The position numbers and the translations under genes are program-made. This document shows, one piece after another, positions 14,146 to 26,012 of a DNA stretch of 42,835 nucleotides. Below the pieces are notes generated by a model. It saw only the letters and a program-made list of their open reading frames with translations, did not search any database and was not told where the DNA came from. Within the stretch, counting starts at the first letter, position 1; each line of letters begins with the position of its first letter. Origin of the DNA: a virus; IMG/VR virus record IMGVR_UViG_3300042549_004752, positions 1 to 42,835 of that record. One strand, written 5' to 3'.

Positions 14146-16650
14146 ATGGCAACAAGAATGCAACAGCGTAGGGGCACTGCGGCGCAGTGGATCTCTACTA
14201 ACAGTGGCAACGGTCCTATCCTAAACGCGGGCGAAATCGGGTACGAAACCGATACAAACAAATTTAAAATTGGTGATGGCACAAATCACTGGATCAACCT
14301 TGACTATTTTATTGATGCTAACTCAACAATAAATCCATCATTTGGTTCAAGCATTACATTTGAAGGCGCAACAGATAATGCTTTTGAAACTACGGTTTCG
14401 GTAACTGACCCTACAGCTGATCGTACAATCACACTTCCAGACGCAACTGGCACAGTAGCACTTACTTCAGATGTTACAACACACGCAGACCTTACAGTAG
14501 CTCATGGCGCAACTGGTGCGGTAGTTGGAACAACTAATACACAAACCCTTACTAACAAGACCCTTACATCACCAGTAATCAATACACCTACTGGAATTAC
14601 AAAGACAGACGTTGGTCTATCAAGTGTTGATAATACAACCGATGCTAATAAGCCAGTATCTACAGCAACACAAACAGCTCTTGATTTAAAAGCACCCCTA
14701 GCCTCACCGACCTTCACAGGTACTGTAACCCTGGACACTAATGTCAACCTTGTATTTGAAGGCGCAACAGCAGATGCTCACGAAACAACTTTAACAGTTG
14801 CTGACCCCACCGCTGATCGGACAATTACATTCCCAAATGCCACAGGAACAGTAGTTCTTGCTGACGGTGGCGGAAATGTAACGGTATCAGGAGACTTAAC
14901 TGTATCGGGAACAACAACTATTATTAATAGTACAGTGCTTGAAGTTCAGAATGAAGTTAAATTTGAAGGCTCCACAGCAAATGATTTTGAAACTAGCCTC
15001 AAAGTTGTAGACCCTACAGCAGATAGAGTTATTACATTTCCAGATGCTACTGGAACAGTTGCCATACTTGATACTACTCAAACATTGACTAATAAAACAA
15101 TTAACTTAAATTCAAATACATTAACTGGTACAAAATCTAACTTTAATGCGGCGATGTCAGACGCAGACTTTGCAACACTTGATGGCACAGAGACACTAAC
15201 AAATAAAACAATTAACTTAACTTCAAATACAGTAACCGCTACGCTTGCTCAATTAAATACAGCAGTGTCAGATGCTGATGTTGCTTCACTTGCTGGATCA
15301 GAAACGCTTACCAATAAAACTTTAACTTCTCCAAATGTTAACGAAGCAGTTGCTCTTTTAGCAACCTCTACAGAGTTAAACGTTCTTGATGGGATTACCG
15401 CATCCACAGCCGAACTAAACATTCTTGATGGCGTAACATCTTCAACCGCAGAACTAAACATTCTTGATGGAGTTACAGCAACTACAGCAGAGATAAATAA
15501 ACTTGCTGGAGTTACAGCAACTACAGCAGAGATAAATACTTTAGCTGGACTTACGTCTACCGCTGCAGAATTAAACATTCTTGATGGCGCTACTCTTAGC
15601 GTAACAGAACTTAACTATGTTGATGGTGTCACTTCATCTATTCAAACACAGCTAAACGGCAAGCAAGCAACTGTTGCTAATGTTTCAGATGTTGAAATTG
15701 GATACTTAGATGGTGTTACTTCAAGCATTCAAACACAGATGGATGCTAAAGCACCACTAGCCTCACCAACATTTACAGGTACTGTAACATTGCCTTCTGG
15801 CACTGTAACAAGCACAATGATTCTTGATGGCACAATTGCAAATGCAGATATTAATGCAGCAGCAGCAATTGACTGGACAAAACTTGGAATATCTTCAACA
15901 GTTTCTTCAACTGAAATTGGGTATGTAGATGGCGTAACTTCAGCTATTCAAACTCAGTTAGATGCAAAGTCACCTCTTGCATCACCTACTTTTACAGGAA
16001 CAGTAAACGCAGCAGAACTTATTCTTTCTGGAGATCTAACAGTTAACGGAACTACCACAACAATTAATTCAACTACACTAGCTGTGGATGATAAAAACAT
16101 AGTAATTGGCGATGTCACTACCCCCTCAGATGTAACTGCAGATGGTGGCGGTATTACCCTTAAAGGCGCAACAGACAAAACCTTTAACTGGGTAGATGCA
16201 ACAGACTCTTGGACTTCTTCAGAGCACATCAACCTTGCTTCAGGAAAAGACCTAAAGGTAAATGGAACTGCAGTTATTAGCTCAACTGCTGGTGGATTTA
16301 TATTTACTGATGGCACACAGACAAAAGAAGGAACTCCTTCTCGTACACCAATTATTCAAAAGACAGATTCTTACACACTATCAGCATTAACTGAAAGAGA
16401 TTCACTAATTGAAGTTGCAAAAGGATCTGCAGCAACAATTACAATTCCATTAAACTCAGCAGTAGCCTTCCCAGTTGGAACATCAATTGATATTCTTCAA
16501 ACTTCTACAGGACAAGTAACAATTGCAGGGTCTGTTGGAGTAACCATAAACTCAACACCAGGATTAAAACTTAGAACACAGTGGTCAACTGCAACTCTTT
16601 TCAAAAGAGCAGAAAACACCTGGGTTGTTTACGGCGATCTGACAGCGTAA
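14146..16650 (+). CDS. Large tail fibre with Mtd-like N-terminus
   Basis: This 834-aa protein begins with QQRRGTAAQWISTN and NAGEIGYETDTNKFKIGDG, the short N-terminal module found in the major tropism determinant and many phage fibres. Three FEGxTxxxxET...DPTADRxITxP units, several TLTNKT units and a tandem AELNILDGVT region (about residues 405-485) form a repetitive shaft. A different C-terminal domain (from about 725, TPIIQKTDSYTLSALTERDS) may be the tip. GGGAGG precedes the ATG. It is likely a host-recognition fibre. No reverse transcriptase or template repeat is present, so diversity-generating retroelement use is not supported. Confidence 0.75.
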   Translation: MATRMQQRRGTAAQWISTNSGNGPILNAGEIGYETDTNKFKIGDGTNHWINLDYFIDANSTINPSFGSSITFEGATDNAFETTVSVTDPTADRTITLPDATGTVALTSDVTTHADLTVAHGATGAVVGTTNTQTLTNKTLTSPVINTPTGITKTDVGLSSVDNTTDANKPVSTATQTALDLKAPLASPTFTGTVTLDTNVNLVFEGATADAHETTLTVADPTADRTITFPNATGTVVLADGGGNVTVSGDLTVSGTTTIINSTVLEVQNEVKFEGSTANDFETSLKVVDPTADRVITFPDATGTVAILDTTQTLTNKTINLNSNTLTGTKSNFNAAMSDADFATLDGTETLTNKTINLTSNTVTATLAQLNTAVSDADVASLAGSETLTNKTLTSPNVNEAVALLATSTELNVLDGITASTAELNILDGVTSSTAELNILDGVTATTAEINKLAGVTATTAEINTLAGLTSTAAELNILDGATLSVTELNYVDGVTSSIQTQLNGKQATVANVSDVEIGYLDGVTSSIQTQMDAKAPLASPTFTGTVTLPSGTVTSTMILDGTIANADINAAAAIDWTKLGISSTVSSTEIGYVDGVTSAIQTQLDAKSPLASPTFTGTVNAAELILSGDLTVNGTTTTINSTTLAVDDKNIVIGDVTTPSDVTADGGGITLKGATDKTFNWVDATDSWTSSEHINLASGKDLKVNGTAVISSTAGGFIFTDGTQTKEGTPSRTPIIQKTDSYTLSALTERDSLIEVAKGSAATITIPLNSAVAFPVGTSIDILQTSTGQVTIAGSVGVTINSTPGLKLRTQWSTATLFKRAENTWVVYGDLTA
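15469..15537 (+). repeat. Direct 30-bp repeat inside the fibre gene
   Basis: A 30-bp sequence at 15469-15498 recurs exactly at 15508-15537, offset by 39 bp (13 codons). It encodes part of a tandem TAEINxLAGVTAT unit. Such in-frame repeats can change shaft length by recombination or slippage. Confidence 0.8.
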
Positions 16651-16663
16651 TAGGGAAATATAA

Positions 16664-17551
16664 ATGGCTAAGAAGACGGGTAAACGTTCCGCGGCATCAA
16701 ACGACTTTTTAGAGCCATTGGCGCCAACAAGCGTATCTGCTACAAATGTTGGAACAGGCAGAGCGTTTAACAATGGCGCCGCAACAGTTACATTTTCTTT
16801 GCCTGAACTATCGCCTGCTGCTACATCATTTACTGTAACCTCATCACCTGGCGGATATACAGGAACTGGGTCATCTTCTCCAGTTACAGTCACAGGTTTG
16901 CAATCTAACACCGCCTACACATTTACCGCAACAGCTACTAATGCTGCGGGAACCTCTCAAGCATCTATAGCCTCATCTTCTATTACCGCAACAACAGTTC
17001 CTGCAACAATGTCTGCCCCAACTCCAACTGCTGGAGTTAACCAAAACTCTATTGCTTTCTCAGCACCAGCAACTGGTGGCAGCACCATTACTGGCTTTAC
17101 CGTAACAGGCAGCGATGGCACTACTGGAACAGGTGCTACCTCTCCAATTGTTATCAATGACACTGCAGGAACTTCTCAGACTTATACAATTACCGCAACA
17201 AACGCTAACGGCACAAGCATTGCTTCTGCTGCATCTGGATCTATTACTACGTTATCCCCATTCTTCCCGCCGTTCTTCCCGCCGTTCTTTCCATTCTTCC
17301 CACCATTCTTCCCACCATTCTTCCCATTCTTCCCGTTCTTCCCACCATTCTTCCCGCCATTCTTTCCATTCTTTCCATTCTTCCCACCATTCTTCCCACC
17401 ATTCTTCCCGTTCTTCCCACCATTCTTCCCACCATTCTTCCCACCGTACTTCCCACCATCAAACAATAAATTGTGCAGTGGCGCTGATCAGTTCTGGGGC
17501 AGTTGCTGGGGCGGCGAGTGCCTAGACTATTTAACTGGTCCGTCGTGCTAA
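16664..17551 (+). CDS. Fibronectin-III fibre protein with Phe-Pro repeat and Cys-rich tail
   Basis: This 295-aa protein starts with a basic N-terminus and has two Fn3-like domains (about residues 20-110 and 112-195, with GLQSNTAYTFTATATNAAGTS). These are followed by a 66-residue Phe/Pro repeat (200-265) and a 30-residue tail with four Cys (CSGADQFWGSC and CLDYLTGPSC). Fn3 domains in phages usually sit on virion surfaces and bind carbohydrate. The FFPP/FFP repeat would form an aromatic, polyproline-like rod; I know no family with this exact design. The gene lies at the end of the fibre block, directly before the accessory block with seven prolyl-4-hydroxylase-like enzymes. It may be a fibre or head-surface protein. 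Confidence 0.65.
   Translation: MAKKTGKRSAASNDFLEPLAPTSVSATNVGTGRAFNNGAATVTFSLPELSPAATSFTVTSSPGGYTGTGSSSPVTVTGLQSNTAYTFTATATNAAGTSQASIASSSITATTVPATMSAPTPTAGVNQNSIAFSAPATGGSTITGFTVTGSDGTTGTGATSPIVINDTAGTSQTYTITATNANGTSIASAASGSITTLSPFFPPFFPPFFPFFPPFFPPFFPFFPFFPPFFPPFFPFFPFFPPFFPPFFPFFPPFFPPFFPPYFPPSNNKLCSGADQFWGSCWGGECLDYLTGPSC
17261..17458 (+). repeat. Coding low-complexity (FFPP/FFP) repeat
   Basis: This 198-bp stretch encodes 18 units of FFPP or FFP (the last is YFPP), arranged as two FFPP then one or two FFP, repeated. DNA units are not identical: TTC/TTT and CCA/CCG vary, which argues for selection on the protein rather than very recent slippage. Confidence 0.9.
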
Positions 17552-17576: not shown

Positions 17577-18014
17577 ATGATTACAGATGAAAATATTAAA
17601 TATGTTTATGAAAGAGACAACGGTCAAGGTGCTCCATTAGTTTTTGTTATTGATGAAGAATGCTTGTATGATTTTGTCGTAACATCGTACGGCGTTGATT
17701 TGTTTACAAAAAATAAAGAAATTTTAGATATATCTTCTGATTATCCAGAGCATGATGGATCTACTCTTCAAATTATTAAAGAAAATGATGAAATTGAAAT
17801 ATATCAAACTAGTAAATACTTTGGTTCAATTTTATTAAGTAATCCAACCGTTGTTAGCGCACTTGATTATCCATATGGGCATCATGTTGTGTCTCCACAT
17901 GCAAAATTTGATGGAGAAAAATTTATGATTAAAAATACTACAGTTTATGCCCACTCTCTATTAACAGAATGGCATATAAAAAATCCAAATCACCCTAACT
18001 ACACAGCTCCATAA
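17577..18014 (+). CDS. Hypothetical protein at the start of the accessory block
   Basis: This 145-aa acidic protein contains EECLYDFVVTSYGVDLFTKN and YGHHVVSPHAKFDGEKFMIKN. AGAGGGG precedes the ATG. It is not recognised. It is clearly more AT-rich than the fibre genes before it and marks the left end of the accessory block. Confidence 0.6.
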   Translation: MITDENIKYVYERDNGQGAPLVFVIDEECLYDFVVTSYGVDLFTKNKEILDISSDYPEHDGSTLQIIKENDEIEIYQTSKYFGSILLSNPTVVSALDYPYGHHVVSPHAKFDGEKFMIKNTTVYAHSLLTEWHIKNPNHPNYTAP

Positions 18015-18072: not shown

Positions 18073-18306
18073 GTGTCAGAAAAAAGTGCATGGGAAAAAT
18101 ATAAAGAAAAAAATGGTGCGACCCCACTAGACATGTTAAATCCAAATACAAAACGTATACCAAAAGAAGATTCTGATAAAAGATTTAGCATTTGCAAGAC
18201 GTGCCCTGAATTAATTAAACTAACATCTCAATGTAAAAAATGTGGCTGTTTTATGAAAATAAAAACCACCCTTGAAATAGCTAAGTGTCCAATAGGTAAG
18301 TGGTAG
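18073..18306 (+). CDS. Small zinc-binding protein (CxxCP...CxxCGCFM...CP)
   Basis: This 77-aa protein carries CKTCPELIKLTSQCKKCGCFM then AKCPIGKW, giving six Cys arranged for one or two zinc sites. This pattern is widespread in T4-like cyanophages and other aquatic phages (recalled), but its function is unknown. The GTG start has AGGAG at 7-nt spacing; the TTG 3 nt earlier is less likely. It lies just before the oxygenase cluster promoter. Confidence 0.7.
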   Translation: MSEKSAWEKYKEKNGATPLDMLNPNTKRIPKEDSDKRFSICKTCPELIKLTSQCKKCGCFMKIKTTLEIAKCPIGKW

Positions 18307-18319
18307 CACTTGCTTTATT

Positions 18320-18378: not shown

Positions 18379-19092
18379 ATGGATATTTATAATGAAAATG
18401 AAAACCCTTGGTTTACAAAAGATAGGTCTGAGACGGTTTCAAATAGAGTTGCAAGGTTAATGCCTCAAAGCGATATTACTATTAGCAACCCAGGGCTGGG
18501 GTTAAATGTTTATCATAATACTTTTTCTTTAGATGACTCTAAAAGATACATAAACACGCTTGAGTCCAACCTGTCTACTGGTAACAAATATAAGTGGTCA
18601 GAGGCCCAAGTAACAAACTCTGACGTGCCAATCAAAAAGGCAAGAGACTGTGTAGATTTTAGATATAAACAAGAGAACCTAGGGCCAAGGGACGAGTCTA
18701 ATGCGGACTTAATTGACCTTCATGAAGAGATATATCAAAAGTTAAAACTGTGTATGGACGACTATGCCCACTACTGGGGCATAAATGTTACATATTATGA
18801 AGCATTTAACTTTGTAAAATATGAAGGTGAAGGCACTCACTTTAATATTCATGCCGATCACGGCCCTGCTTATAACTGTACCGTTTCTGCGGTAATCTAT
18901 ATTAATGATGATTACGAAGGCGGAGAGATTAAGTTTCCAAGATTAGATAACTTTGTGCATACTCCAAAGGTTGGGGATATAGCCATCTTTCCCTCAAACT
19001 ATATCTACGAACATGCCTCTTTACCAATGAAAACAGGAACAAAATATTGTGTTGTTGTTATGACAGATATAAACCTTTTGAGCCACAACTAA
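18379..19092 (+). CDS. 2OG-Fe(II) dioxygenase 1 (prolyl 4-hydroxylase-like)
   Basis: This 237-aa enzyme has a double-stranded beta-helix core. The iron ligands are His158-x-Asp160 (HADHG) and His212 (YEHASL), and Lys222 (TGTKY) is the likely 2-oxoglutarate anchor. The conserved YINDDYEGGEIKFP strand lies between them. Such enzymes couple 2-oxoglutarate and O2 to hydroxylation of a protein, sugar or small molecule. It is closely related to the next gene (shared RDCVDF, EAFNxxKYE and YNCTxS motifs), so the two look like a tandem duplication. It is the first gene after the predicted cluster promoter. The substrate is unknown. Confidence 0.88.
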   Translation: MDIYNENENPWFTKDRSETVSNRVARLMPQSDITISNPGLGLNVYHNTFSLDDSKRYINTLESNLSTGNKYKWSEAQVTNSDVPIKKARDCVDFRYKQENLGPRDESNADLIDLHEEIYQKLKLCMDDYAHYWGINVTYYEAFNFVKYEGEGTHFNIHADHGPAYNCTVSAVIYINDDYEGGEIKFPRLDNFVHTPKVGDIAIFPSNYIYEHASLPMKTGTKYCVVVMTDINLLSHN

Positions 19093-19105
19093 AATAGGAG
19101 AACAT

Positions 19106-19777
19106 ATGAATGCAGAAACTACAATATCAGCACCCTGGAGCAGCTACGAAGAGATTGGTCCAGGCATTTTTGTTTACCACGACGTTTTGCCAACAGAATT
19201 AGACATCATTAATAGGCTGGAACAAGTTTTAGGAAATGATAACCCCCACTATAGTTGGCAACCAGCCTACGTAGGGTATAGGCAAAGAATGCCAGAATAT
19301 AGAGACTGCGTTGACTTTAAATTTAAAAAAACAGATATTCAAAACGATAAATCTGAAGCATCCACTCAGCTACAGGGGATTTGGCAAGATTGTTATGATA
19401 GACAAAAGTTAGCAGTAGAGGATTATTGCAAACGTTTTAACATTAATAACTTAAGGTACTGGGAAGCCTTTAACTACATCAAGTACGAGCCTGGTCAGCA
19501 CTTTATGGAACACCATGACCACGGGTTCTCGTATAACTGTACTCTATCTTTAGTTGCTTATATTAATGATGACTTTGAAGGCGGAGAGCTATTCTTTAGG
19601 CTTCAAGGGCTAACTTATATCCCAAAGGCTGGGGATGTTGTGCTATTCCCGTCAAACTTTATGTACCCGCACCAAGCAAAGGTTGTTCACTCTGGAACAA
19701 AATACTCATTAGTAACAATGCTTGATTACAGCGAGAAGTACCATACCGCAGAAATGTATCAAGAAACTGGATCATAA
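19106..19777 (+). CDS. 2OG-Fe(II) dioxygenase 2 (prolyl 4-hydroxylase-like)
   Basis: This 223-aa protein has iron ligands His136-x-Asp138 (in EHHDHG) and His189 (YPHQA), with Lys199 as 2-oxoglutarate anchor. The core strand reads YINDDFEGGELFF. It is a close paralogue of the preceding enzyme. AGGAG is present before the ATG. The stop overlaps the next start codon by one base. All catalytic residues are retained, so it is predicted to be active. Confidence 0.88.
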   Translation: MNAETTISAPWSSYEEIGPGIFVYHDVLPTELDIINRLEQVLGNDNPHYSWQPAYVGYRQRMPEYRDCVDFKFKKTDIQNDKSEASTQLQGIWQDCYDRQKLAVEDYCKRFNINNLRYWEAFNYIKYEPGQHFMEHHDHGFSYNCTLSLVAYINDDFEGGELFFRLQGLTYIPKAGDVVLFPSNFMYPHQAKVVHSGTKYSLVTMLDYSEKYHTAEMYQETGS

Positions 19778-20499
19778 TGCCAATTATCACAGCTTATAAA
19801 AGAACACCAACGGCATTAAACATAGAGCCGATGTCTATTAAACGTGACTGGATGGATGAAACCCCTCAAGGCCATGCTTATAGGTGCCACCCAGTAACCT
19901 CTGCTAATGTTATTGGTTGGGCTATCTCTTTGCCAATAGATTTGAAGTTTATTTGGAATGGCGTAAATGATACAAGTAGCGATAACGTAACAATTTTAGA
20001 AGGTACAGAGTACGTTTACACGGGTAGAGGGCAGTCTACAATTAGTTTTAACACTGGGTTTATTCTAAGAACTGCTCAGGATGTAAGCGTGCTGACGATC
20101 ACCCCTCAAAACTATTTTAATGAAAACTTTGAAGTAGTATCCTCTTTAATATCAACTTCATTCTTAAATACTGATTTTCCATTAGCAATTAAATGTAGAA
20201 CACCTAACCAAGAAATCATTATTAAAGCAGGAACCCCAATAGCAACTATAATTCCTATATCTTTGACTTCCCTAAAAGATGAGTCAGTAGAAATTGTTAA
20301 TTTTGTTAATACTCAAGAATATAATGACGCTGTAAGTGCGTATGGAGCAGCAGCTCAAGAAGTAAATAAGCTTGGCGAATGGACGGATTGGTATAGAAAC
20401 GCAGTAAATGAAAAGGGGGAGTCAGTAGGAGCCCACGAAGTAAAAAACCTAAAACTTAGTGTTATTGACAATACAAGGTTTAATAATGAAAATAATTAA
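19777..20499 (+). CDS. Unknown protein, paralogue of the following gene (DUF6065-like pattern)
   Basis: This 240-aa protein reads YRCHPVTSANVIGWAISLP then FIWNG early, and later KAGTPIATIIPISL. This resembles the DUF6065-type phage/bacterial family as I remember it; the name needs a profile search. The next gene shows the same order of motifs (C-P...G-Y/W...P-x-D-I/L...AGTP-x-A-x-x-IP), so the two are probably diverged duplicates. It overlaps both neighbours and must be co-translated with the oxygenases. The function is unknown. Confidence 0.6.
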   Translation: MPIITAYKRTPTALNIEPMSIKRDWMDETPQGHAYRCHPVTSANVIGWAISLPIDLKFIWNGVNDTSSDNVTILEGTEYVYTGRGQSTISFNTGFILRTAQDVSVLTITPQNYFNENFEVVSSLISTSFLNTDFPLAIKCRTPNQEIIIKAGTPIATIIPISLTSLKDESVEIVNFVNTQEYNDAVSAYGAAAQEVNKLGEWTDWYRNAVNEKGESVGAHEVKNLKLSVIDNTRFNNENN

Positions 20500-21250
20500 T
20501 TTTATAAGTAATAAGCCTTGGCTTACTAAAGAGAGCGCATCAAAACCAGTTCCAATTTCAAAATTAATGCCGCAATGGTACAAAGATGCAGATAGATTTG
20601 CTAAGATGCCAACTGGGGAATACTACAAAGCGCCAAAGGAAGTTTGCCCGTTTCCCAAAGAAGGTACAACCAACGATTATGGAAAAATCCCTACATGGAA
20701 GGCTTGCCCCGCAATTCTTGATATTTTAACAACAGGCTATAGCTTGGTTACGCCTTGCGACATAGAGTTCTTCTTAGATGACGCTGGGCAGATTGATGTT
20801 AAAATTGAAGATCCAATGTATAAAGGGTTTGCAACTAGAAGGCCCCCTATGCCACAATTTTGGCATCCAGAGGGGTACTATAACTATCACTTTGCTTGGA
20901 TGCCCGATTGGGCAGTAAAAGTCCCAAATGGGTATAGTGTTTTATACGTGTCGCCTCTTAATCGTTATGATCTTCCAATTATGACAGTTTCTGGGATTAT
21001 TGATAACGACGAGGTTAACCTTCCTGGGTCATTTCCATTTTTTGTACAAGAGGGTTGGGCTGGGGTTTTACCAGCAGGAACCCCTTATGCTCAGCTGATC
21101 CCCTTTTTAAGGGAAGATTGGAAAGCTGAAACCACTATCCCTTCAACACAAACAATGATGAATAGCAATATAGAAAATAGTAAGAAATACCGTGTACCAG
21201 ATGGCGGGGTATATCAAAAAGAAGTCTGGACCAAGAGGGCCTACGAATAG
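20486..21250 (+). CDS. Unknown protein, paralogue of the preceding gene; type found in aquatic phages
   Basis: This 254-aa protein starts MKIINFISNKPWLTKE and carries LMPQWYKD, TWKACPAILDILTTGYSLVTP, FWHPEGYYNYHFAW and LPAGTPYAQLIPFLREDW. Similar proteins occur in T4-like cyanophages (recalled), without known function. ATG 20486 was chosen (14-nt overlap, AAGG upstream) over an upstream in-frame codon. It sits inside the oxygenase cluster, so a role in the same modification pathway is likely but unproven. Confidence 0.65.
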   Translation: MKIINFISNKPWLTKESASKPVPISKLMPQWYKDADRFAKMPTGEYYKAPKEVCPFPKEGTTNDYGKIPTWKACPAILDILTTGYSLVTPCDIEFFLDDAGQIDVKIEDPMYKGFATRRPPMPQFWHPEGYYNYHFAWMPDWAVKVPNGYSVLYVSPLNRYDLPIMTVSGIIDNDEVNLPGSFPFFVQEGWAGVLPAGTPYAQLIPFLREDWKAETTIPSTQTMMNSNIENSKKYRVPDGGVYQKEVWTKRAYE

Positions 21251-21254
21251 GAAA

Positions 21255-21263
21255 TGGTATAGT
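21255..21263 (+). promoter_or_regulatory. Extended -10 box 6 nt before a start codon
   Basis: TGGTATAGT ends 6 nt before ATG 21270 and no Shine-Dalgarno sequence is present. A transcript starting there would be leaderless or nearly so. Confidence 0.4.
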
Positions 21264-21269
21264 TAACAT

Positions 21270-21950
21270 ATGAAACAGAACAATGACTCATACACCGTAG
21301 TTAAACGAGCGCCGTCTATGACCCCATCTGGCTGGTTTGGAGATAGCAAAGACATGATTGTCGAGCTAGAGAACTTCATGACCCAAGAAGAGATAGAGTT
21401 TTTAGAGAAAGCTGCCAAATCTTTAACCATTTGGGATGTAACGCAAAGCCATACAAATGAGAATGGAACAGTTACCTATGACTCAGATTATTGGAAAGAT
21501 AGGGTTGCCACTCAACCAACCTTAGATAAAAATGATCCAAAGATATCTCCAGTTATTGCGGGGCTCTTCCAACGCCTAAGGCCAATTATTGAAGAGTTTT
21601 ATAAGGTAGAAGTTCGCCCAACTGGCACAACTATTGTTAAATGGCTTCCTGGGCAATTTCAAAAACCTCATGCGGATAAAGAACTTCACGAGGGCCCTGA
21701 CGCGGGAACCCCTAATGATTTTCCAAACTACGACTTATCAAGTTTGTTTTACCTAAACGACGACTATGAAGGCGGAGAGCTATACTTCCCCCTACAGGGC
21801 GTGCAGTTTAAGCCTAAAAAAGGTGCCGCTTACTTCTTCCCAGGGGATAAAAACTATATCCATGGGGTTACTGAAATCAAAAGCGGCTTAAGATTTACGT
21901 GCCCTTTCTTCTGGGAAATTACAGCGCATACAGGGGATAGAAAGCCGTAA
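21270..21950 (+). CDS. 2OG-Fe(II) dioxygenase 3
   Basis: This 226-aa protein has iron ligands His134-x-Asp136 (PHADKE) and His198 (YIHGV), with Arg208 as 2-oxoglutarate anchor and core strand YLNDDYEGGELYFP. It has more insertion between the HxD and the core than genes 1 and 2 and belongs to a different branch. It lacks a ribosome site and has a -10-like box immediately upstream. The substrate is unknown. Confidence 0.87.
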   Translation: MKQNNDSYTVVKRAPSMTPSGWFGDSKDMIVELENFMTQEEIEFLEKAAKSLTIWDVTQSHTNENGTVTYDSDYWKDRVATQPTLDKNDPKISPVIAGLFQRLRPIIEEFYKVEVRPTGTTIVKWLPGQFQKPHADKELHEGPDAGTPNDFPNYDLSSLFYLNDDYEGGELYFPLQGVQFKPKKGAAYFFPGDKNYIHGVTEIKSGLRFTCPFFWEITAHTGDRKP

Positions 21951-21958
21951 TGACGGGG

Positions 21959-21964
21959 TACAAT
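21959..21964 (+). promoter_or_regulatory. -10-like box 7 nt before a start codon
   Basis: TACAAT ends 7 nt before ATG 21972; the gap reads AAAACAT with no Shine-Dalgarno sequence. It is a candidate for leaderless transcription, though no -35 box is evident. Confidence 0.35.
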
Positions 21965-21971
21965 AAAACAT

Positions 21972-22745
21972 ATGAAATCAATTTACGATATCCCGCTTAA
22001 CTCGGCTGAGGGTTCTCCTGACTTCTTAAGTCAATTTAAGGGTAAAGTCACCCTACTGGCTAATACAACCGTAGGCTGTGGTAACGCTAATCAAATGGAA
22101 GTTCTCCAATGGCTTCAAGATAAGTACGGTGGAGATGATTTTCAAGTAGTTGCTATCCCTACCAATGACTACTGTGGCCCTGGCGTTACTAAAGGCAAGT
22201 GGTCGCAAGGTATCACCTGCGGTTTAGACTCACAAGAGTATGGCAAAGACGTTTATGGAACTACTTTTGCGTTCTCAGAGATGGTTGCATCAAATCCAAA
22301 TAAAAGTGCTAATGAGATGAGTGATCATAAGGGGGACGATTCTGTAAACGGATTAGGTCAACCAAGAAAAGAAACTCACGAACTATATAAAGAGATATCA
22401 GATCAAATGCTGGCGTATGCTGCAAAACAAAAAGAACTTGGCATTCCAGATAGAAACGGGTACCTATCTCCTTGGCTAAATCAACCTGTTGCTAATGGTG
22501 CAATGCAGGGCGGAAACTTTGAAAAGTATCTTATTGATAAAGATGGTTTTGTAGCAAATTGGTTCCAATGTACCGTTTTAAATTATGATATTGAAAAGAC
22601 CCTTAAAGAAGATTTAATAGCTAAAGGAACCCCTGCTGCTATGGGAGAAGGCAGAACTCCAGAAGTGTTTGAAGAAGAATATAACCTTGTTCAACAGGAA
22701 ATAGAAAAGTTAATTGCTGGAGATAAATCCCTTATAAATAACTAA
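21972..22745 (+). CDS. Glutathione-peroxidase-like thioredoxin-fold protein
   Basis: This 257-aa protein begins SIYDIPLNSAEG then FKGKVTLLANTTVGCGNANQ. This aligns with the glutathione peroxidase start (IYDF...GKVLLIVNVASxCG), with Cys36 in the peroxidatic position, followed by LQDKYGGDDFQVVAIPTNDY. Near residues 182-200 NFEKYLIDKDGFVANWF matches the family's late strand. Cys68, Cys83 and Cys200 are also present. It is longer than usual (about 160-180 aa), with an insertion at about 75-165 and a C-terminal helix. It may detoxify peroxide or supply redox support to the iron oxygenases around it; that is inference. Confidence 0.72.
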   Translation: MKSIYDIPLNSAEGSPDFLSQFKGKVTLLANTTVGCGNANQMEVLQWLQDKYGGDDFQVVAIPTNDYCGPGVTKGKWSQGITCGLDSQEYGKDVYGTTFAFSEMVASNPNKSANEMSDHKGDDSVNGLGQPRKETHELYKEISDQMLAYAAKQKELGIPDRNGYLSPWLNQPVANGAMQGGNFEKYLIDKDGFVANWFQCTVLNYDIEKTLKEDLIAKGTPAAMGEGRTPEVFEEEYNLVQQEIEKLIAGDKSLINN

Positions 22746-22761
22746 ATGGAGCACAAGTACA

Positions 22762-23517
22762 ATGAACCTAGCGAACAAAAAAAGACTAACAAAAGACATA
22801 GTTGTTTATGAGAACTTTATAAGCAAAGAAGATTGTAAAAAAATGATTCAAGCCCTAGATGCTCAAGCAGACAACGGGGCAATTTCTTGGATGCCTATTT
22901 CATTTTATGAATCATACTCTTCAGTATTGCCACAAGACAACGATAAAGAAGTGATTGACGCTGGGCTATCTCCAACTATATTCTCAGACATTGAAAAAAT
23001 AATGTACGAAGCAATTGCTTCAGTTCATGACTTAGACCCAAAGGTAATATCAAAAATTGGGTATCACACACAAAAATGGGAGCCAGGAGCATACGCAAGA
23101 ATTCACTCTGACAATACAGATGAGCATGGGAAGTCAGGCGCGTTTACAAGAAGCCGATACGCGGGTTTTCTATATCTTAATGACGATTTTAAAGGCGGGC
23201 TACTTAAATTCCCAAGTCAAAACATAGAAATTAAACCAGAAGTTGGACTGCTTGCCGTATTTGATGGCGGGTTTAACAACATGCACGAGGTATCCCTAAT
23301 AGAGAGTGGGGTACGGTACACCATCGGATCTTTCTGGGATGATAGAGAAGAGTCAGACTATCCGCAAGAGCTAAGAGATGCTTGGGCTGCAGAAATGAAA
23401 GAAACTAGAGCTCAACAAGAAATTGAACGAGCAGAGTGGCAAGAGTTGCTTAAGCAAGGTTGGAAACTAGACGCAGAGGGTAATAAATACAAAGTAAAGG
23501 AGACTACAAATGATTGA
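22762..23517 (+). CDS. 2OG-Fe(II) dioxygenase 4
   Basis: This 251-aa protein has iron ligands His115-x-Asp117 (RIHSDN) and His175 (NMHEV), with Arg185 as anchor and core strand YLNDDFKGGLLKFP. A charged helical extension of about 55 residues follows the domain (from about 195), unlike the other members. TGGAG is present upstream. It overlaps the next gene by 8 nt. Confidence 0.87.
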   Translation: MNLANKKRLTKDIVVYENFISKEDCKKMIQALDAQADNGAISWMPISFYESYSSVLPQDNDKEVIDAGLSPTIFSDIEKIMYEAIASVHDLDPKVISKIGYHTQKWEPGAYARIHSDNTDEHGKSGAFTRSRYAGFLYLNDDFKGGLLKFPSQNIEIKPEVGLLAVFDGGFNNMHEVSLIESGVRYTIGSFWDDREESDYPQELRDAWAAEMKETRAQQEIERAEWQELLKQGWKLDAEGNKYKVKETTND

Positions 23518-24169
23518 ATCTTTTAAACAACAGTTAATAGATAGCGGGTACGTAGTTACAGAGATTACCCCAGAACTATTTTCTGTTGAAAACTTTTTAT
23601 CACAAGATCAAATAGATACTTTTTGGGATATTATACATAGCACGCCTCAAAAAGATTGGGAAGTAGAGTACCACGCAAACTTAAAACACTTTTGCATGGA
23701 AAAATTTGGCAGAGATGACGTAGATAATCTGGTTGCTGAAGGTAAATTTGAAATTACTCAAAATTGGAAAGATAAAAACTTTAATATATTACATCATGAG
23801 ATCCAGGGGCTTTTATATGATGGTTTAAACTCAATGGTAATAAAAGCTGACCCAAAACTAGTTTTAAGCGGCTTTGCAACAATTCAAAGAATGCAACCAG
23901 GGGTAGAGCTAAAATCGCATACTGACCAAAAAACAGATCCATCTATAAAATACGCCACAATTGCATATATTAATGATAACTACGCAGACGGCGAGTTATT
24001 TTTTCCAAACCTTGATATCCAGCTAAAGCCTAAACCAGGAACTATGTTATTTTTTCCAGGTAATGAGGAGTATGAGCACGGGGTCAAGCCCGTAGGCGAA
24101 GGGTCAATAAGATATGTTCTTGTTGGTTTTATTAAAGAAAAAGATCACTATCAAAATAATAAATACTAA
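23510..24169 (+). CDS. 2OG-Fe(II) dioxygenase 5
   Basis: This 219-aa protein has iron ligands His137-x-Asp139 (SHTDQ) and His190 (YEHGV), with Arg201 as anchor. The core strand is YINDNYADGELFFP, a small deviation from NDDYEGGE. The start overlaps the previous gene, with AAGGAG inside it. Confidence 0.87.
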   Translation: MIESFKQQLIDSGYVVTEITPELFSVENFLSQDQIDTFWDIIHSTPQKDWEVEYHANLKHFCMEKFGRDDVDNLVAEGKFEITQNWKDKNFNILHHEIQGLLYDGLNSMVIKADPKLVLSGFATIQRMQPGVELKSHTDQKTDPSIKYATIAYINDNYADGELFFPNLDIQLKPKPGTMLFFPGNEEYEHGVKPVGEGSIRYVLVGFIKEKDHYQNNKY

Positions 24170-24179
24170 GGGGCACTAA

Positions 24180-24806
24180 ATGGATAGAGAAATACTTGAA
24201 GAAAAAGTTTACTATTACACAAACGTAATTGAAAACCCAAAAAAACTTGTTGATGCAATTGAACAAGACAATGAAAATCCTTGGGGCGAATGGATGGCGT
24301 GTAGTGGAGAGGCGTACGTCTATGGTACAGATAAAAGTATCTTTGCAGACCCGTCAGATATACAAAAAACTTATATTTACTCTACATTACAAAAAGCTTT
24401 TGATGATGTAGCAAGAGATTACGCAGCAGCTCACGGCATTACAGAGGACCCTAAACTATTTCCAATGTACCCAATTAAAAAATATAAGGCTGGTACATTT
24501 ATGGGAGCACACTTTGACCAACAAGAGGGCGATGACCGCCTTAAAGTATCTTTTGTTATGTACTTAAACGACGATTATGAAGGTGGAGAACTATCCTTTA
24601 CCATCGCTTCTCCAGGAGGAATACTAACAGAGGCAAGGCCTCCAGAAGATTTTGCAAAAGCCGAAAAAGGATTAAATTATACTTTTGCTATCAAACCAAA
24701 AGCTGGAAGCATTATTGTTTTCCCGCCATCTCCTCCGTATCACCACACTGCACATTTAGTAAAGAGTGGGGAAAAGCTCATGGTGCCACAACACTGGATT
24801 CATTAG
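24180..24806 (+). CDS. 2OG-Fe(II) dioxygenase 6
   Basis: This 208-aa protein has iron ligands His111-x-Asp113 (AHFDQ) and a distal His in YHHTAH (188, 189 or 192), with Lys199 as anchor and core strand YLNDDYEGGELSF. A loop of about 25 residues separates the core strand from the distal His. AAGGGG is present upstream. The next gene (SDR) starts 1 nt after its stop. Confidence 0.85.
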   Translation: MDREILEEKVYYYTNVIENPKKLVDAIEQDNENPWGEWMACSGEAYVYGTDKSIFADPSDIQKTYIYSTLQKAFDDVARDYAAAHGITEDPKLFPMYPIKKYKAGTFMGAHFDQQEGDDRLKVSFVMYLNDDYEGGELSFTIASPGGILTEARPPEDFAKAEKGLNYTFAIKPKAGSIIVFPPSPPYHHTAHLVKSGEKLMVPQHWIH

Positions 24807-24807
24807 C

Positions 24808-25476
24808 ATGAAAACAGCTATTGTAACTGGGGCAAGCAAGGGTGTTGGTTTAGCAACGGTTAAACGCTTATCTAAAAACGGGTACAAGGTCATCGCTGTT
24901 TCAAGAGACCTCTCTAAAGTATCTGAACTTGTATCTGACAACGTTGAGGTATACCGCCTAGATGTAACAGACTCTAAAGCAATAGAACTATTCTTTGAAA
25001 AATACAAAAATATAACCCTAGATCTTTTAGTTAACAACGCGGGTGGCGGTTCTGGCCCAACCCACATTATTAATGAAACCCCAGAAAACTTTAGAAAAGC
25101 CTATGATATAAACGTAACGGGCCCTATGTACCTATCTCAACTATTTGTACCCTGTATGAGAAGATCACAATCTCCAACAATTGTCTTTATTACCTCTTTT
25201 GGCGGTAAAGTGCCCTATCGCGGTGGGGGAAACTATACAAATGCCAAGAGGGGTGAGCGCGGTCTAATTGACACCATGAGGCTTGAGTTTCCTCAATTTG
25301 GCATTAAAATTACAGATATCTGCCCAGCTACCATCGATACCCAAGAGCAAAAACGAGACCACGCTTTAACTGCGGAGGATTTAGCAGAAGCCATTTACTG
25401 GGTAGGGTCGCTACCAAGCCACGTTAATATAAACGAAATTGAGATTTGTCACATCAACAGTAGCAAATATAACTAA
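24808..25476 (+). CDS. Short-chain dehydrogenase/reductase
   Basis: This 222-aa classical SDR has the nucleotide-binding TGASKGVG (residues 7-14), NNAG (76-79), Asn102, Ser130 (FITSF) and Tyr143-x3-Lys147 (YTNAK). It would oxidise or reduce an alcohol/ketone with NAD(P)H, on a substrate that cannot be read from sequence. It is translationally coupled to the preceding oxygenase, which suggests a shared pathway in which a hydroxylated product is oxidised further. An upstream in-frame start was rejected because the SDR fold begins at MKTAIVTG. Confidence 0.88.
   Translation: MKTAIVTGASKGVGLATVKRLSKNGYKVIAVSRDLSKVSELVSDNVEVYRLDVTDSKAIELFFEKYKNITLDLLVNNAGGGSGPTHIINETPENFRKAYDINVTGPMYLSQLFVPCMRRSQSPTIVFITSFGGKVPYRGGGNYTNAKRGERGLIDTMRLEFPQFGIKITDICPATIDTQEQKRDHALTAEDLAEAIYWVGSLPSHVNINEIEICHINSSKYN
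25468..25473 (+). promoter_or_regulatory. -10-like box 8 nt before a start codon
   Basis: TATAAC ends 8 nt before ATG 25482, inside the end of the SDR gene, with no Shine-Dalgarno sequence. This is weak evidence taken alone; it is listed because the same arrangement recurs in the window. Confidence 0.25.
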
Positions 25477-25481
25477 TCCAA

Positions 25482-26012
25482 ATGAAGTTAGTAAAGCACG
25501 CTGAAGGCGTATACGAAGTTGAGGGGATTTTAGACGAAGAGCTGAGAAGTACCCTTGTATCTGAGGCTCAACTAGATATTGATTGGGATACTACGCACGT
25601 AGGAAATACAGTTAAAGCTATTAGTGATGAGTCACTTGTTAAAATGAACAATCTGTATAAAAATATTGAAACATTTTTTACTAATATAGAGTCAATAGTC
25701 TATTCTCGTGATTTACGAAAACTAAAAGATTCAGAGTTTATGTGGCCGCACACAGACGGCGGAAACCCCGATGACCCAAGAACAATAGTTTTTGGTATTG
25801 CTATTTATTTAAATGACACCTTTACTGGGGGAGAGCTAATATATCCAGACCTTGGACTAAGCGTTACCCCAAGGCCAGGAAGCATGGTTATCCATAGTGC
25901 TCACCTTAAGCATCAAGTGTTTCCAGTTTTAGGGGGAGAACGGTACTCAATAACTACCTTTGTTTTTGGCAATAAATCTACTAAATTTGACCAAAGCGCT
26001 GTTGTTGCTTAA
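25482..26012 (+). CDS. 2OG-Fe(II) dioxygenase 7 (compact)
   Basis: This 176-aa protein is the shortest member. Its iron ligands are His90-x-Asp92 (PHTDG) and a distal His (144, or 141) in HLKHQV, with Arg154 as anchor. The core strand YLNDTFTGGELIYP deviates from NDDYEGGE. It lacks most of the N-terminal helical region of the other members but keeps all catalytic residues. It lies last in the cluster, after the SDR. Confidence 0.83.
   Translation: MKLVKHAEGVYEVEGILDEELRSTLVSEAQLDIDWDTTHVGNTVKAISDESLVKMNNLYKNIETFFTNIESIVYSRDLRKLKDSEFMWPHTDGGNPDDPRTIVFGIAIYLNDTFTGGELIYPDLGLSVTPRPGSMVIHSAHLKHQVFPVLGGERYSITTFVFGNKSTKFDQSAVVA

Follow-up and report, generated by a model that had tools for sequence, protein, structure and literature searches.

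A conserved row of prolyl-hydroxylase-like enzymes behind a fibre-like Pro/Phe-repeat protein in freshwater phages that probably infect actinobacteria

Extensin-type hydroxyproline-rich glycoproteins carry a proline-rich, repetitive stalk that prolyl 4-hydroxylases (P4Hs) modify to give a stiff rod, and giant viruses encode collagen-modifying enzymes. Among the 'auxiliary' genes of aquatic phages, those for 2-oxoglutarate (2OG)-Fe(II) oxygenases rank with the most frequent. Multiple copies are known in cyanophages and pelagiphages and were interpreted as serving host metabolism or DNA repair (PMC3037559, PMC9599517), and the viral functions of the 24 copies in cyanophage S-SCSM1 were called uninvestigated (PMC9602691). 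Here we describe an array of seven 2OG-Fe(II) oxygenase genes in the IMG/VR virus record IMGVR_UViG_3300042549_004752, all 42,835 bases of which are referred to as the window, together with an upstream gene for a protein with a long proline/phenylalanine (Pro/Phe) stalk, here the FPP protein. In related loci from freshwater phages, five to nine prolyl-hydroxylase-like enzymes are encoded in a conserved row behind a fibre-like protein, and the infected hosts are probably actinobacteria. The cyanophage and pelagiphage genes share PHROG 61 and the Pfam family with this array, occur in several copies per phage and in some cases lie beside tail-fibre genes; however, they are mostly scattered, a host-metabolism role is assumed for them, and they form no fixed-order array of six enzymes. 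From comparative sequence evidence, we consider it somewhat better than an even chance that the array is an operon dedicated to hydroxylating the stalk of a phage fibre.

Genes for portal, terminase, tail sheath and baseplate mark the window as part of a contractile-tailed phage. A preliminary description of this DNA had named seven oxygenases, each with its iron triad and 2OG anchor. An open reading frame (ORF) check of the window confirmed all seven genes, which we number as positions 1 to 7, and a profile search placed each of them in PF13640 (2OG-FeII_Oxy_3) above the Pfam gathering cut-off of 27 bits (scores of 31.6–46.5 bits), with matches to PHROG 61, '2OG-Fe(II) oxygenase', at E values of 1e-15 to 1e-27. 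Alignment bore out the active sites, as the H, D and distal H of the HxD...H triad and the K/R anchor are retained in all seven. Among 359 unique sequences, no full-length array-type relative has lost any of these residues; the 14 exceptions were ORFs truncated by a contig end, incompletely aligned sequences and a few distant homologues from outside the array. Pairwise identity between the seven is low (about 24–41%), and only genes 1 and 2 form a close pair (41% over 210 amino acids). The array genes are co-directional and head to tail, with intergenic gaps of −13 to +22 bases, and the oxygenases are interspersed with U1 (DUF6065), U2 (PHROG 7084), a glutathione-peroxidase (GPx)-like protein and a short-chain dehydrogenase/reductase (SDR). 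That this array of 2OG-Fe(II) oxygenases is real is virtually certain.

To follow the array in related phages, we searched IMG/VR with U2. This gave 242 matching stretches, from which 80 loci were fetched as the sample for all locus counts. Multiple oxygenases were present in all 80, typically six or seven, with 5–9 per locus where the array was uncut and 2–9 when truncated loci were included. An assembly artefact is thus ruled out, as the array stands on 80 other contigs. U1 and U2 occupied fixed places in nearly all loci, the SDR was found in 40 (several loci being truncated) and the GPx-like gene in 10, making it an optional member. The suggestion of a dedicated pathway with partners therefore held for the pathway and for the paired unknowns, and less well for the SDR and the GPx-like protein. 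Even a minimal relative has an FPP gene, two U2-like genes and one oxygenase, and for this reason we count U1 and U2 as part of the core.

In a maximum-likelihood tree of 99 oxygenases, positions 1–6 fell into separate syntenic clades, each with one gene from nearly every phage and with gene order conserved between phages; positions 1 and 2 were sisters, and position 7 was a long, variable branch. These ortholog clades rule out recent tandem duplication, and agree with the earlier view that the genes are not recent duplicates apart from the first two, which the tree places as old paralogues. Ratios of nonsynonymous to synonymous substitution rates (dN/dS), computed against three or four relatives, were 0.02–0.14 for positions 1–5 and 0.03–0.17 for U1, U2 and the SDR, showing strong purifying selection; position 6 gave 0.09–0.23 and position 7 gave 0.26–0.59. 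The position-specific clades, intact catalytic residues and dN/dS values indicate old, separately maintained enzymes, and the decay that the preliminary description had argued against from the retained residues is ruled out, although selection on position 7 is more relaxed. This gene, which is divergent and present in only some phages, lies outside the conserved core.

The preliminary description had treated the array by itself, and was incomplete in leaving it unconnected to the adjoining Pro/Phe-repeat gene at 16664, whose product comparative evidence makes the probable substrate. The FPP protein (295 amino acids) consists of an fn3 domain (33.7 bits, Pfam cut-off 25), a Pro/Phe stalk and a Cys-rich end. 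The stalk, encoded by a tandem DNA repeat at 17257–17459, is a run of 67 residues with 35 F, 31 P and one Y, built of FPPF and FPF units that hold 12 PP pairs and 6 single prolines. With only F, P and Y, it contains no Gly-X-Y triplets and thus is not a collagen-like substrate. In 65 of 80 loci the array is preceded by an FPP gene; the remaining 15 contigs start less than 1.8 kb before the array. Among relatives, the kind of stalk is constant, and tips and N-terminal domains vary widely; tips are Cys-rich, S74 chaperone motif-like or Hint-like, the latter two being weak, motif-level assignments below Pfam cut-offs. With its fn3 domain, exchangeable tips and a gene that follows a tail-fibre gene, the FPP protein appears to be built like an adhesin or tail fibre.

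Linkage was also examined in the reverse direction, on loci chosen by the DNA pattern of the repeat alone, many of which encode quite different N-termini. Counting only loci with 4 kb of sequence on the side in question, an oxygenase lay within 4 kb downstream of the repeat in 45 of 57 loci and upstream in 2 of 38; for repeat runs of at least 60 residues, the downstream count was 22 of 24. On six whole contigs selected for FPP, 26 of 44 oxygenases fell within 10 kb downstream of a repeat, compared with 7.1 expected when ORFs were drawn at random as anchors (none of 1000 draws reached 26), and on U2-chosen contigs 57 of 71 oxygenases lay behind a repeat, compared with 14.3. We also searched 84,980 cellular species genomes for the repeat pattern and found 27 contigs, nearly all chance matches; none of the chance-match contigs carries an oxygenase. 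Four cellular contigs carried a real repeat, and the three with downstream sequence (L212, L219 and L230) all carry oxygenases. A host origin of the repeat was rejected, as the real repeats lie on metagenome-bin contigs that look like binned phage DNA.

The modelled fold of one enzyme points, by analogy, to polypeptides as substrates. An AlphaFold 2 model of the position 2 enzyme (predicted local distance difference test, pLDDT, 87), the one of the seven that was modelled, found almost only prolyl hydroxylases as its nearest solved structures (template modelling (TM) scores of 0.5–0.66). The best match was Pseudomonas putida P4H with EF-Tu (4iw3, E 1e-10), and others were human PHD2 with HIF peptides (TM up to 0.66), Chlamydomonas P4H with (Ser-Pro)5 (3gze), Bacillus anthracis P4H and, at rank 21, the chlorella virus collagen P4H (5c5t). 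Sequence searches with positions 2 and 3 returned B. anthracis P4H first. For position 2, the model thus favours, by analogy, hydroxylation of a polypeptide over oxidation of DNA or lipids. The phage enzymes share the double-stranded beta-helix, HxD...H triad and K/R anchor with these P4Hs, but are only 15–20% identical to them and occur as five to nine different paralogues per operon; we know of no P4H substrate that is a Pro/Phe-only repeat. The chlorella virus enzyme is likewise virus-encoded and of similar structure, but viral collagen hydroxylases are single enzymes acting on Gly-X-Y collagen, whereas the system described here is an enzyme array in tailed phages without Gly-X-Y. Compared with extensin, the phage stalk has Phe instead of Ser/Tyr/Lys and would belong to a fibre instead of a cell wall, and no glycosyltransferase was identified in the array.

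Stalks come in two kinds, one with PP pairs only, (PPFF)n, and one a mixture that includes single prolines (FPF). We compared stalk kind with array content in 127 loci that have positions 2 and 3 (91 distinct stalks). Position 1 was present in 111 of 111 single-Pro loci and missing in 16 of 16 others, so all 127 were concordant; position 5 showed a similar trend (75 of 81 single-Pro loci, 0 of 11 others). We take the match of enzyme 1 to single prolines as a strong hint, not proof. It suggests a set of position-specific hydroxylases that follows the repeat code, with enzyme 1 acting on the single Pro in FPF and enzyme 2 on PP, and that builds an undescribed class of phage fibre with a stalk of Pro and Phe only, a 'hydroxy-FPP' stalk; we hold this tentatively, at somewhat less than an even chance. 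If true, a viral structural protein would for the first time be seen to carry a hydroxylation code set by several enzymes, and the system would be widespread among freshwater phages with probable actinobacterial hosts.

Synteny and the linkage to the repeat, seen in both search directions, make the FPP stalk the probable substrate, an assignment that we favour with modest confidence. The array would then be an operon dedicated to maturing a fibre-like virion protein after translation. The fn3 domain or domains would hold the FPP protein to the virion and the exchangeable tip would probably bind the host. Each oxygenase would probably hydroxylate a different Pro (or Phe) position, such as the first or second Pro of PP or the single Pro of FPF, and through hydroxylation a Pro/Phe rod that would otherwise be insoluble would become a stiff, hydrated stalk, as in collagen or extensin. 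The SDR and GPx-like proteins are possible redox accessories, and U1 and U2 may have some part in the same process. If true, this would mean a new kind of hydroxylated structural protein with a repeat-reading enzyme set, and a step in virion making that depends on oxygen, iron and 2OG. Many phage oxygenases would shift from 'host metabolism' to 'virion building'. The link between array and repeat offers a specific substrate hypothesis that mass spectrometry can test, and that would, if true, give a large group of phage oxygenases its first concrete job.

U2 is a paralogue of U1. Its AlphaFold 2 model (pLDDT 70) gave dUTPase and dCTP deaminase as top Foldseek hits (E 6e-4), and a GxIDxD...AGTPxAQL stretch, read directly, resembles two dUTPase motifs; a profile search of solved structures with U2 returned no dUTPase. 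The fold is possibly dUTPase-like. Many haloarchaeal tailed viruses, including HF1, HF2 and HRTV-7, encode distant homologues of U2 (noted for 20486–21250 in the window and for L205:8896-9786). In HRTV-7 the homologue adjoins thymidylate synthase, and no repeat or oxygenase annotation is listed near the halovirus homologues.

We weighed three other explanations. The oxygenases may modify host proteins, for example by prolyl hydroxylation of EF-Tu, or retune host metabolism, with the repeat protein a mere neighbour. The EF-Tu-bound enzyme that heads the structural matches fits this idea, as do earlier proposals for phage 2OG oxygenases such as modulation of 2-oxoglutarate for NtcA signalling (PMC3037559). 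We consider it unlikely, as it accounts neither for oxygenases lying on one side of the repeat nor for why six specialised copies would be needed, nor for the match between enzyme 1 and repeat type. Production of a modified nucleotide, glycan or other small molecule with U1/U2, the SDR and the GPx-like protein, as in DNA hypermodification or secondary metabolism, appears more unlikely again. The resemblance of U2 to dUTPase and dCTP deaminase and the thymidylate synthase beside its halovirus homologue would suit such a role, two oxygenases match Tet_JBP weakly and below cut-off, and cyanophage S-SCSM2R has oxygenases among glycosyltransferases. However, the U2 model is of limited confidence, PHD and P4H folds rather than TET/JBP head the structure search for position 2, the array showed no further gene for hypermodification, and the linkage to the repeat gene again goes unexplained. 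It is also conceivable, if improbable, that the oxygenases act on the Cys-rich tip, the fn3 domains or another tail protein (such as that at 14146–16650) rather than on the stalk. Tips are indeed Cys-rich and exchangeable, and some cyanophage 2OG genes, in S-MbCM7 and S-H9-1, adjoin short tail-fibre genes whose products have no Pro repeats; yet tips and N-terminal domains vary where the Pro/Phe stalk is the constant feature, and it is the stalk type that enzyme 1 follows.

Several observations count against stalk hydroxylation by the array. On the FPP-selected contigs, 18 of 44 oxygenases lie at a distance from every repeat gene, with none nearby in the genome G020. Of 48 loci with a long repeat, 10 lack an oxygenase within 4 kb. 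A terminator-like site at 18294–18315 may separate the fibre gene from the array. Our search found no homologue of the FPP protein with a proven virion location, and we infer that location only from its domains and the place of its gene. What counts as a single Pro was redefined once the data had been inspected. On the position 3 tree, presence of position 1 and single prolines both change four times, only two of these changes are on well-supported branches and one (L172) rests on a truncated stalk; with two to four independent changes, the match is not significant on its own.

Table 1. Coordinates of the FPP gene, the array and the genes between them in the window.
Feature	Position	Strand	Evidence and remarks
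FPP protein, probable substrate	16664..17551	+	fn3-like domain(s), F/P/Y run, Cys-rich tip
ORF X, 145 aa, no family match	17577..18014	+	retained in only some relatives
Small Cys-rich (zinc-ribbon-like) ORF, 78 aa	18070..18306	+	terminator-like site 18294-18315 after
2OG-Fe(II) oxygenase p1	18379..19092	+	PF13640 41.7 bits; clade p1; dN/dS 0.04-0.05
2OG-Fe(II) oxygenase p2, sister of p1	19106..19777	+	PF13640 46.5 bits; AlphaFold 2 model
U1, DUF6065 protein, 240 aa	19777..20499	+	PF19541 109 bits, cut-off 26.6
U2, PHROG 7084 protein, 254 aa from ATG	20486..21250	+	PHROG 7084 E 3e-32
2OG-Fe(II) oxygenase p3	21270..21950	+	PF13640 37.3 bits; clade p3
Glutathione-peroxidase-like, optional	21972..22745	+	PF00255 32.3 bits, cut-off 27, N-terminal 72 residues only
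2OG-Fe(II) oxygenase p4	22762..23517	+	PF13640 31.6 bits; clade p4
2OG-Fe(II) oxygenase p5	23510..24169	+	PF13640 45 bits; clade p5
2OG-Fe(II) oxygenase p6	24180..24806	+	PF13640 44.8 bits; clade p6
SDR, from ATG	24808..25476	+	PF00106 138 bits; PHROG 3142
2OG-Fe(II) oxygenase position 7, divergent	25482..26012	+	PF13640 34.6 bits; long branch; dN/dS 0.26-0.59

Of 24 large relatives, 13 carry a gene for the actinobacterial regulator WhiB, which makes actinobacteria the probable hosts. Queries of a phage collection with U2 and the oxygenases found no isolate with this array, and the cyanophage regions examined contained no Pro/Phe-repeat gene. Among open-licence literature, we found no report linking phage 2OG oxygenases to a fibre repeat, and nothing relevant on DUF6065, on prolyl hydroxylases with tail fibres or on Nanopelagicales phages with oxygenases.

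Further observations concern the repeat genes and their surroundings. The FPP gene of the window is preceded by a gene (14146–16650) for an 834-residue tail-fibre-like protein that combines an Mtd_N domain with numerous LTNKT-type repeats. In two loci (L144:601-1647 and L128:3222-4265), two FPP-repeat genes stand in tandem directly before the oxygenase array. Hint-like (hedgehog/intein-type) ends replace the Cys-rich tip at L010:4799-6181, L170:2132-4324, L178:3040-5559 and L180:4048-5253, of which L178 only gave a Pfam Hint_2 match, weak and sub-threshold. The four cellular contigs with real repeats (L212, L219, L229 and L230) come from published metagenome-assembled genomes of Verrucomicrobiales, Gammaproteobacteria and Chitinophagaceae, L219 and L229 from one bin, and are probably phage contigs binned with bacteria. 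In one relative, two oxygenase genes and a GPx-like gene form an additional set that has no repeat gene in its vicinity (G006:50096-52335), so the oxygenases of these phages are in part found in other surroundings. In cyanophage S-SCSM1, four tandem 2OG oxygenases adjoin the short tail-fibre gene ORF245 (L299:30681-35145, ORF240-245), whose product carries a long Arg/Pro/Gln/Phe repeat insertion that is missing from the neighbouring ORF244; this is possibly a parallel case in an isolated phage.

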